A DNA stretch of 64,000 bases from Flavobacteriales bacterium (GTDB lineage Bacteria > Bacteroidota > Bacteroidia > Flavobacteriales_D > Crocinitomicaceae), in contig CANHHA010000012.1 in the NCBI GenBank assembly GCA_947460825.1, positions 1 through 64,000 on the forward strand, read 5' to 3'. The notes under the pieces are model-generated. The model was not told the origin of the DNA and made no database searches. It saw only the letters and a program-made list of their open reading frames with translations. This document shows, piece after piece, positions 57,673 to 60,630 of the stretch. The translations under genes and the position numbers were made by a program. Position 1 is the stretch's first letter; the number at the start of each line of letters is the position of its first letter.

Positions 57673-58833
57673 TTATGCTACTTCGCTTGAAGGTTTATTT
57701 AATTGTTGTTTGACGGCAAAAGATTGAATAATTCCTATAGAAACACAGGCCATAATCAAGGCGGACCCTCCCATTGCTAAAAAGGGCATATTTTGACCAG
57801 TAACTGGAAATACCCCAGTACACACCAACATATTAATGCTTGCTTGAGCAAGTAAATGCAATCCGATAGCCATGGAAACGTAGGTTTCAAAGAGGTTATC
57901 CGATTTTAAGGCGATGCGAATAATCCGGTACAGAAGTACTAAATACAGAAAGGTTAACAGTATCGCGGAAACGGCACCGAATTCTTCAACAAAGCTCGCA
58001 TAATAGAAATCGGCATACGCTTCTGGAATATACTCTTTTAACTTCCCATCGCCCACCCCCGTGCCAAACCAAGATCCTGTATGAATGGCCCTTCTCGCAT
58101 CCAAAGCCTGCGCGTTTTCAAGTACATTTTGATCCGTAGTAATGGTATTCGTAAGCCTATTTTTCCAAGTTTCATACCTTGGAAGAATGTTTAAACTTGG
58201 TAATGCGGAGTGCACACCAATGATAAGCACCAACAAGCCAATCCCAACCATTCCCATTGTTGCTAGTTTTGAAAACGGTACTTGTCCGATAAACAACACC
58301 GCCATAGATAGCATGAAAAGCAATAACGCAGTGGATAAGTTGTCTTTGAAAATAAGGCCGCAAATGATTACGATGGGGGCCATTAGAGGGAGAATCCCTT
58401 CCTTCCAATCATTTAATTTATCTTTTTTACGCACTAGTAACTTAGACAGGTATAGAAACAAGGCCAGTTTCGCAAAATCTGAAGACTGAAACGTTAATCC
58501 TATGACGGGGATTTGAACCCACCTTCCAGCACCGTTAATTTCCTTACCAAAAAGGAAGGTAAATATCAGCAACGCAATCGCAAAGAAGTAACTAAACTTG
58601 GCGATTTGGCTGATGTACTTCGGGTCGATGCGGTGAATGGTGTAAATGCATGAAAAACCAAGAACGATATAAATGAGGTGTTTAAATAGATAGCGAAACG
58701 GGGTTCCTCCTTCCATTTTAACCAGAATAGGGACAAAACTATACACGGTAACAATAGACAAAGCGAGCAGCAAAAGGGTAATCACCCAAATAACCATATC
58801 GCCTTTTAGGTATTTGACAAATAAATCCTTCAT
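57673..58833 (-). CDS. ftsW: Septal peptidoglycan glycosyltransferase FtsW
   Basis: SEDS-family polymerase that links lipid II into glycan strands at the septum, with its partner FtsI encoded at the other end of the cluster. 386 residues with about 10 membrane helices. The SEDS signatures FQSSDFAKLALFLYLSKLL and GVGDGKLKEYIPEAYADFYYASFVEEFG (split here over its halves) contain the catalytic Asp region. Its start overlaps the unknown gene at 58830-59285 by 4 nt (ATGA). Confidence 0.96.
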   Translation of the reverse strand: MKDLFVKYLKGDMVIWVITLLLLALSIVTVYSFVPILVKMEGGTPFRYLFKHLIYIVLGFSCIYTIHRIDPKYISQIAKFSYFFAIALLIFTFLFGKEINGAGRWVQIPVIGLTFQSSDFAKLALFLYLSKLLVRKKDKLNDWKEGILPLMAPIVIICGLIFKDNLSTALLLFMLSMAVLFIGQVPFSKLATMGMVGIGLLVLIIGVHSALPSLNILPRYETWKNRLTNTITTDQNVLENAQALDARRAIHTGSWFGTGVGDGKLKEYIPEAYADFYYASFVEEFGAVSAILLTFLYLVLLYRIIRIALKSDNLFETYVSMAIGLHLLAQASINMLVCTGVFPVTGQNMPFLAMGGSALIMACVSIGIIQSFAVKQQLNKPSSEVA

Positions 58834-59285
58834 ATCCCGTGAATTGTTTTTAAAATGAACGCCATTTCATTGATGGCATCCAGCCCTTGTGCGCCGCAAC
58901 CAGTTAACATAATAATTCCTTTGCCGCCGATTAATTCGGGTTGGCTGAGGGCTGAGGAAACAGAATCAACCCCTTGACAGTCGGCATTAATGACCTGAGA
59001 TGACTCCATATCATTGAGTAAATACACGCCTTTTACATTTGGAAATTGTGCATACGCTGAATCAACAACAACATTAAAATAATCCAGCGTACATATCCAA
59101 TGAATGGGAAAAGGCATCGACTCAAACGTAGAAAACAGGTGCGATACCGGAGCGTCAAGCCACGTAAAGACATCGTATCCATGGTATTTACCACGGGGTT
59201 GGATGCTTGTAAGCGCTGCCCTGGCCAAGGTCTGGCGACGGTTTTCCTTCAGCGTTGAATGGAGATCAGTTATCTTCTTCTCCAT
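58830..59285 (-). CDS. Unrecognised protein within the dcw cluster, possibly a MurD domain-3 relative
   Basis: 151 residues, no signal peptide or membrane helix; basic N-terminus (KENRRQTLARA). I know no family for it. Its start lies 1 nt after the murD stop and its end overlaps ftsW by 4 nt, so it is translated with both. By eye its order of segments follows the MurD C-terminal domain: ESM..P..WI at 55-64 (MurD 341-350), VKGVYLLN at 84-91 (MurD VKAIVCLG, 371-378) and GIIMLTG at 123-129 (MurD EIVLLSP, from 416). The DSKATN and SPACASFD ligand motifs are not kept. It could be a degenerate duplicate acting as regulator or scaffold. A longer frame to 59414 lies inside murD and is not used. Confidence 0.75.
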   Translation of the reverse strand: MEKKITDLHSTLKENRRQTLARAALTSIQPRGKYHGYDVFTWLDAPVSHLFSTFESMPFPIHWICTLDYFNVVVDSAYAQFPNVKGVYLLNDMESSQVINADCQGVDSVSSALSQPELIGGKGIIMLTGCGAQGLDAINEMAFILKTIHGI

Positions 59286-59286
59286 G

Positions 59287-60630
59287 TTAAAGTCCTCGAA
59301 CCGCTTTTTTAAACTGATTCCCTCGGTCTTCATAGTTTTTGAACAAGTCAAAGCTCGCACAGGCAGGAGACAACAAAACAATCTCCTCATTCTTTGCCAG
59401 ATGATAGGCGGCATTCACGGCCTCTTTTGCCGATTGGGTTTCTACAATCTGCTCGACATGATCAGCAAAGGCTTCCTTGATTTTTTCATTATCAAACCCA
59501 AGACAGACAATTGCTTTCACTTTTGCCTTCACCAAGGATTCCAATTCCGAGTAATCATTTCCTTTATCCACCCCTCCAACGATCCATACGGTTGGACGTT
59601 CCATGCTTTCAAGGGCGTACCATGCTGCATTGATGTTCGTAGCTTTAGAATCGTTTATGAATTCTACGCCATTAACCTTGGCAACAAATTCCAAACGGTG
59701 TTCCACATTTTCGAAATCCATTAGACTTTCGCGCACTAAATCCGCTCGAATATCCAAGAGACGGGAGGCGATTCCCGCGGCTAATGCATTTTGTGCATTG
59801 TGTTTGCCCTTTAGGGCGAGTTCATGAATTGACATAGTTGTTGTTGTTTTTATGTTTATAATTAGTTGTTCAGTTGTTAAATACCCCCCAAATTCATTGG
59901 GTTTTGTTGCAGAAAACGGCACCAAGCGCGGTGCAATCTGATGCGTGTTTATCCATTGCGTAATGTTCGGATCATCTGCATTGTAAATGAAGAAATCAGC
60001 CGCGGTCATCTGTTGGAGTATCCGGAATTTGGAAGCCACATAATTCTCCATCTTGTAGGCATATCGATCCAAATGATCTGGGGTGATGTTGGTAAGCACT
60101 GCGATATCCGCCTTAAACGCATGCATATCATCTAATTGGAATGAGCTTAACTCTAACACATACCAATCTCGGTCTTCCAGCGCGACTTGCTTCGCATAAC
60201 TGTATCCCACATTACCGGCCAAGCCAACATCAAATCCAGCCTTTTTCAAGATGTGGTAAATCCACAAGGTGGTGGTAGTTTTACCATTGCTTCCTGTAAT
60301 ACAAATGGCTTTTCCCTTGGAGAACGGTTTAGCGAATTCAATTTCAGAGACCACGGTAATCTCTTTGGCTCGAATGTCTTGCATGATGCCAGCGGTTTCT
60401 GGAATTCCGGGAGATTTTACCACAAGGTCGGCATGGAGAATTCGATCTCGTGTATGCCCATGTTCCTCAAAATCGATGGCATACTTATGCAATTCAGCTT
60501 TTGCGGACGCGTTAATTTCGCCTGCGTCAGACACAAAGACCTGAAGTCCTTTAACTTTCGCCAGGATAGCCGCACCGATGCCACTTTCGGCAGCACCTAA
60601 CACTACGATATGTTTCCCGTCGAGCTTCAA
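59287..60630 (-). CDS. murD: UDP-MurNAc-L-alanine--D-glutamate ligase
   Basis: Adds D-Glu to UDP-MurNAc-L-Ala. GAAESGIGAAILAK is the UDP-binding loop, ITGSNGKTTTTLWI the ATP P-loop, VLELSSFQLDDM the Mg2+ and ligand site, and INDSKATNINAA plus LLSPACASFDLF the domain-3 ligand motifs. 447 residues, all key motifs intact. It abuts mraY without a gap and is followed after 1 nt by the unknown dcw gene. Confidence 0.98.
   Translation of the reverse strand: MKLDGKHIVVLGAAESGIGAAILAKVKGLQVFVSDAGEINASAKAELHKYAIDFEEHGHTRDRILHADLVVKSPGIPETAGIMQDIRAKEITVVSEIEFAKPFSKGKAICITGSNGKTTTTLWIYHILKKAGFDVGLAGNVGYSYAKQVALEDRDWYVLELSSFQLDDMHAFKADIAVLTNITPDHLDRYAYKMENYVASKFRILQQMTAADFFIYNADDPNITQWINTHQIAPRLVPFSATKPNEFGGYLTTEQLIINIKTTTTMSIHELALKGKHNAQNALAAGIASRLLDIRADLVRESLMDFENVEHRLEFVAKVNGVEFINDSKATNINAAWYALESMERPTVWIVGGVDKGNDYSELESLVKAKVKAIVCLGFDNEKIKEAFADHVEQIVETQSAKEAVNAAYHLAKNEEIVLLSPACASFDLFKNYEDRGNQFKKAVRGL

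Follow-up and report, generated by a model that had tools for sequence, protein, structure and literature searches.

A gene between murD and ftsW that is very probably a free-standing paralogue of the MurD C-terminal domain

An additional gene between murD and ftsW

Few bacterial gene clusters are as well known as the division/cell-wall cluster. In the window, the whole 64,000-nucleotide stretch of DNA that was analysed, the murD and ftsW genes of this cluster are separated by an additional open reading frame (ORF), here called gene X, which lies at 58830..59285 on the minus strand and is predicted, from the ORF call, profile comparison and a tree, to encode a 151-residue stand-alone, degenerate paralogue of the MurD C-terminal domain (domain 3). 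The murD gene (59287..60630, minus strand), identified by ORF call, Pfam and profile comparison, is intact and encodes 447 residues, with residues ~300-447 being the part that resembles X; by inference, it would be the parent gene of the duplication that gave X. On the other side, ftsW (57673..58833, minus strand; ORF call and Pfam) encodes 386 residues. Both flanking genes matched their Pfam families across most of their lengths.

X has an ATG start and no internal stops. It begins 1 nt past the end of murD at 59287, and its stop is overlapped by 4 nt (ATGA) by the start of ftsW at 58833, confirming the intact extra ORF of 151 residues described in the first-pass annotation. A Shine-Dalgarno-like GAGGA (59293..59297, minus strand), read from the sequence, is located within the 3' end of murD, 7 nt upstream of the ATG of X. 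A genome search found X in one copy.

Three stretches of X, all on the minus strand, correspond to defined parts of MurD. Codons 32-46 (GKYHGYDVFTWLDAP; 59148..59192) constitute the most conserved stretch in the window's family and fall at the MurD GVEFINDSKAT strand and loop; X has Trp at the column of MurD Asp317. In the family alignment, codons 55-63 (ESMPFPIHW; 59097..59123) align to MurD ESMERPTVW, and codons 124-128 (IIMLT; 58902..58916) align to the MurD IVLLS strand. The pairs previously matched by eye (HGYDV with NGVEF, ESM..P..WI, VKGV with VKAI, and the final strand) were all in register when the family was aligned with MurD domain 3.

Conservation and synteny of X

A first survey of 200 genomes of the window's family was carried out by single-sequence search with X at a loose limit of E 10, which matched 144 genomes, many of them at chance level. 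At E 0.001, 81 of the 299 genomes searched across the order gave a match to a profile built from 20 window-family X. The window's family accounted for 78 of these, and one of the remaining three matches lay in a 424-residue frame that is probably not X. We read the locus in 100 family genomes that carry X, each counted once, picked from 121 loci of which 21 were left out as genomes already counted or as lying on named records. Since they were picked among X-positive genomes, these 100 are uninformative on how often X is absent.

In these 100 genomes, all chosen by a match, the X ORF was 132-178 residues long throughout. The end of murD lay at most 66 nt upstream of X in 97 genomes, and ftsW started at most 74 nt downstream in 98 and at most 353 nt downstream in all 100, overlapping X in 69. 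The first-pass annotation had suggested checking whether orthologs always lie between murD and ftsW; the ftsW side of this position held in every genome and the murD side in 97, with murD apart in three. The three exceptions (G013, G033 and G048) are from one genus, and X remains ahead of ftsW in each of them: murD is on another contig in G013, lies some 6 kb from X in G033 (L077), and was not found within 8 kb around X in G048. At the G048 locus (L221), a gene that by eye resembles an acyltransferase gene precedes X, ftsW and murG, all on the same strand. In two genomes of another genus (L100/L101; G263, G301), other ORFs sit between murD and X, and in G301 X abuts ftsW despite the extra ORF on the murD side. 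The intervening ORFs at L100 and L101 encode 334-371 residues, with a lipoprotein-like start and a shared CS-x-S-x-DVVHNG pattern.

X was absent from 10 of 20 window-family loci read, which had partly been selected for having no match; murD led straight to ftsW in these 10, five of which are in the window's genus, and X is therefore dispensable there. Two loci of the window's family, L071 and L074, contained very divergent ORFs (151 and 146 residues, respectively) between murD and ftsW that scored 3.6 and -0.2 bits with the X profile; judged by position, they are probably X.

In other families of the order, we read 40 murD-to-ftsW intervals. One or two plain MurD domain-3 ORFs were present in 18 of them (families f2, f3, f4, f5, f8, f10 and f11), two of the 18 loci having been selected because the window-family profile matched them, and the remaining 22 contained no ORF or other genes. 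Most other-family X carry NDSKAT, P-x-x-WI, VLFSP and RG. Tandem X pairs occurred at six loci (L082, L084, L085, L088, L096 and L120 in locus numbering; genomes G200, G202, G203, G206, G213 and G220) in the four families f2, f4, f5 and f8, and the second copy looks old, since those of f2, f4 and f8 cluster together in trees.

With a second profile, built from 21 other-family X, 50 of the 198 class genomes searched had at least two matches at E 1e-8. Twenty of these 50 were fetched, and 19 had an X-type ORF between murD and ftsW, one of them (L233) short and weak; at L241, also among the 20 fetched loci, X and ftsW were both not found. None of the 20 loci read from families f14-f20, which belong to the same class, contained X, and the absence there of any intervening ORF of at least 80 residues agrees with the murD-to-ftsW order that had been taken as standard. 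Elsewhere in the phylum, 20 loci showed no X-like ORF; in two of these (L156 and L160), ftsW was not found beside murD. The viral contigs searched contained no relative.

Descent of X from MurD domain 3

The window X alone matched no Pfam or NCBIfam model (Pfam up to E 5), in keeping with its earlier description as an unknown protein, and among PDB sequences it had only three weak matches, at E 0.39 or worse. The window-family X profile matched no PDB chain, and none of 20 window-family X matched Pfam Mur_ligase_C (PF02875). The 14 Pfam families that these 20 did match, none Mur-related by name, were discarded as chance because each was matched by one member only.

Profile-profile comparison by hhalign gave a different result. 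The profile of 20 window-family X aligned to MurD domain 3 with a probability of 90.7% and a score of 43.5, against no more than 23.9 for 200 column-shuffled decoys and 13.6 for the reversed profile, which argues against the earlier reservation that the similarity could be chance; with MurD domains 1-2, the probability was 1.7%. The profile of 21 other-family X matched the window-family profile at 97.2% (E 3e-11) and also detected MurD structures, with E-values from 1e-25 to 2e-31 and alignments covering chain residues ~290-447; three other chains appeared only at E 0.05 or worse. When 10 X were scanned against Pfam Mur_ligase_C, four passed the curated cut-off and three gave weaker matches of about E 1e-5. 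The other three had no match: two window-family members, L080 and L072, and the first L085 copy. AlphaFold2 modeling of X from three near-identical sequences (P0001, L031 and L032) yielded a pLDDT of 40.7, too low for a usable model.

X follows the MurD C-terminal domain (PF02875) element by element, with the linker helix, hinge, NDSKAT strand, helix and P-x-x-WI strand in order, then the VK strand, SxxEA helix, VLxS strand and last helix, and it is placed next to murD. It differs in being stand-alone; the three-domain organization of MurD, including the ATP-binding central domain, is not found in its 151 residues, which correspond to the domain-3 part alone. The two profile-profile values and the tree described below place X in Mur_ligase_C. 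Profiles, intermediates that keep the motifs, synteny and trees all back the original proposal of a duplicated, catalytically dead Mur-ligase C-terminal domain. As judged from these comparisons, X is very probably a free-standing paralogue of MurD domain 3.

Residues kept and lost

We compared individual residues, numbered after E. coli MurD via alignment, in 41 other-family X, with both L085 copies and all window-family X omitted. N316, D317 and S318 were each kept in 38 of the 41, and S410, P411, R425 and G426 in 40, 41, 38 and 39, respectively; R302 was Arg in 30. The D-Glu lysine K348, present in 99 of 99 MurD rows, was found in 2 of the 41, with Arg in 6 more, and it is mainly the D-Glu lysine loop that these X have lost relative to MurD. 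They also carry X-specific residues, Ser at a MurD-invariant Ala (34/41) and Phe at Leu409 (30/41). The window's family shares these marks, with Thr at the Ala column in 19 of 21 X and Phe at Leu409 in 15 of 21; the window X itself has Leu at the Leu409 column.

The 21 window-family X lack NDSKAT, the Ser415 loop and RG. D317 was kept in none of them (Trp in 20, Phe in 1), the loop around Ser415, located 3' of the IVLLS strand in MurD, was deleted in all 21, and Lys at the K348 column occurred in one, bearing out the statement that the ligand motifs are lost. These X differ from MurD also in a new conserved GK-x-x-G-x-DVF-x-W motif at the former active-site face, and G32, K33, G36, D38, F40, W42 and P58 are near-invariant among them. 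According to the excerpted text of one study, Ser415 bonds the D-Glu part in MurD crystals, and in simulations the two carboxyl groups of MurD inhibitors are bound by Lys348, joined in some cases by Thr321, and by Ser415 together with Phe422 (PMC3527612). The sequence of X predicts that it cannot by itself be a ligase, since neither the UMA-binding domain nor the central domain that binds ATP is present and the D-Glu lysine has been lost.

Trees and origin of X

In a tree of 38 MurD and 41 X, a single branch separates the two groups (98/99), and the 21 window-family X (100/100) are nested within X, beside the first copy of f4 (93/95); these support values, like those of the 38-X tree below, are approximate, as the bootstrap had not converged. 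This tree omits both L085 copies, the window-family X that diverge most (L071, L072 and L074) and further rows for thinning. In a tree of 24 X, the second L085 copy, a very long row, fell outside the X clade, and the AU test (p 0.46) did not reject a single X clade. In a tree of 38 X, which omits L233, L111, L100 and all window-family X, 37 of the 38 formed one clade (99/91) and the L227 X stood apart; the row labelled as the L227 MurD in this tree is in error a duplicate of the L227 X row. The L227 X (G507) keeps GGVDK and is closer to the MurD domain 3 of the window than its own MurD is.

The L227 X possibly arose by a second, separate duplication, and a single origin of all X is not cleanly shown by these sequences. 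The simplest reading would be that the 3' end of murD underwent a partial tandem duplication early in the history of the class, with second copies, losses and erosion coming later.

Selection on X

The ratio of dN to dS was calculated by the Nei-Gojobori method for 10 pairs. For X it was 0.05-0.17 in the eight pairs with finite dS, the other two giving no ratio owing to saturated dS, and in three Fluviicola-like pairs (L015, L025, L027 and L028) it comes from the N-terminal part of X only. The corresponding values were 0.02-0.12 for murD in nine of the 10 pairs and 0.01-0.06 for ftsW in eight. These ratios indicate that X is under purifying selection, yet evolves faster than murD and ftsW. The window X is 45% identical to the L004 X, and FtsW in the same comparison is 82% identical.

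A proposed role beside MurD and FtsW

X is conserved under selection beside ftsW and has lost the ligase job, and it is therefore probably an unrecognised helper of cell-wall building. We put at roughly even odds (about 0.5) that X arose as a paralogue by early duplication and became a non-catalytic accessory protein that docks on MurD and couples it to FtsW/MurG. X would act at the cytoplasmic face of wall synthesis, would dock via the old domain-3 active-site face onto the MurD body or its nucleotide-bound state, and would couple the state of MurD to the FtsW/MurG end, whose genes it overlaps or abuts. The nucleotide-side face kept in most other families and the rebuilt conserved surface in the window's family are as expected for a docking module. 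The docking mechanism taken separately is tentative, and X proteins may not all dock in the same way, since the window's family no longer has the nucleotide-side columns. The first-pass annotation had suggested that X may sense precursor or bridge MurD/MurG to FtsW; the persistence of X ahead of ftsW in the three genomes with murD elsewhere, and the retention of nucleotide-side positions in most other-family X but not in the window's own family, both bear on such a role. By origin, the likeliest dock would be MurD; by gene position, it would be FtsW, because X remains beside ftsW in genomes whose murD lies elsewhere. The duplication as an event, the docking, its partner and the direction of any regulation are what we infer beyond the observed descent, synteny, lysine loss and purifying selection.

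A more specific form of this proposal, which we regard as rather unlikely, is that a free copy of the mobile domain of MurD acts in trans, replacing domain 3 on the MurD core or clamping over it and so tying glutamate addition to the state of FtsW, that the face in the window's family was rebuilt as a new binding surface, and that X represents an unrecognised class-wide family of the division/cell-wall cluster. Arg302 is described as a handle for domain-3 rotation, and in closed forms of E. coli MurD it contacts either sulfate or the alpha-phosphate of ADP, according to the excerpted text of PMC4816537.

The strongest rival, although still unlikely, is that X works only with FtsW, or with the FtsW/MurG end at the membrane, and has lost contact with MurD, its MurD ancestry being only the source of the fold. 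The close spacing to ftsW (within 74 nt in 98 of the 100 family genomes, overlapping in 69) would fit this, as would the genus of G013, G033 and G048, in which X precedes ftsW without an adjoining murD, the G301 X, which abuts ftsW though separated from murD by another ORF, and the loss of MurD-like nucleotide-side columns in the window's family. However, such rearrangements are confined to two genera and murD adjoins X in 97 of 100 genomes, and the strong retention of the nucleotide-side columns outside the window's family is unexpected for a pure FtsW partner.

That same retention (D317, S318, S410, P411, R425 and G426 in 38-41 of 41 other-family X, R302 in 30) raises the idea of X as a nucleotide or UDP-precursor sensor, which would retain the nucleotide-facing half of the former active site and report the wall precursor or ATP level; the Arg302 contact with sulfate or the ADP alpha-phosphate, as given in the excerpted text of PMC4816537, points the same way. 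This is improbable, because the window's family has lost the columns in question and because MurD, as stated in the excerpted text of PMC3527612, binds ATP through its central domain, which X is without. A decaying duplicate without function could account for the rapid divergence (45% against 82% for FtsW), the loss of the ligand motifs and the absence of X from some relatives, but the low dN/dS in the eight pairs with finite dS, the 132-178-residue ORF in all 100 X-positive family genomes, chosen by a match, and the near-invariant G32, K33, F40, W42 and P58 make decay very improbable. Least credible of all is an unrelated small protein that is MurD-like by chance, for although the single sequence and the window-family profile match no known family or solved structure and the structure model is poor, the profile score above the decoys, the chain of intermediates and the tree argue against it.

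Known systems and significance

Docking of X on MurD with coupling to FtsW/MurG has two partial precedents. MigC of Acinetobacter binds to MurD and slows the enzyme, but it is a COG0523 zinc-binding GTPase and no Mur-ligase relative, according to the excerpted text (PMC12208494). MurG acting as a scaffold of Mur ligases shows that cytoplasmic Mur enzymes can be physically coupled to membrane steps; MurG, however, is a glycosyltransferase, and the excerpted text mentions no domain-3 paralogue (PMC6420597). We found no report of a stand-alone MurD domain-3 paralogue in the excerpts of the open-licence full-text literature that were searched, and some members may already carry automatic labels.

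MurD domain 3 shifts position between the open and closed forms of the enzyme. Since domain 3 is the moving part of MurD, a free, dead copy of it beside murD and ftsW would offer a testable handle on the coupling of precursor supply to septal synthesis, and the division/cell-wall cluster is not where one would expect an additional conserved gene that derives from the gene next to it. If it is true that X binds MurD or FtsW, X would be a natural regulator that is open to in vitro study.

Long murD frames

Long MurD frames in family f9 were considered as possible fusions, and the idea was rejected after two loci were read: the L103 frame runs over mraY in another reading frame, and murD at L106 is an ordinary ORF of 478 residues. 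In G402 and G406, the murD match lies within a reported open frame of 856-859 residues that carries one TAG.
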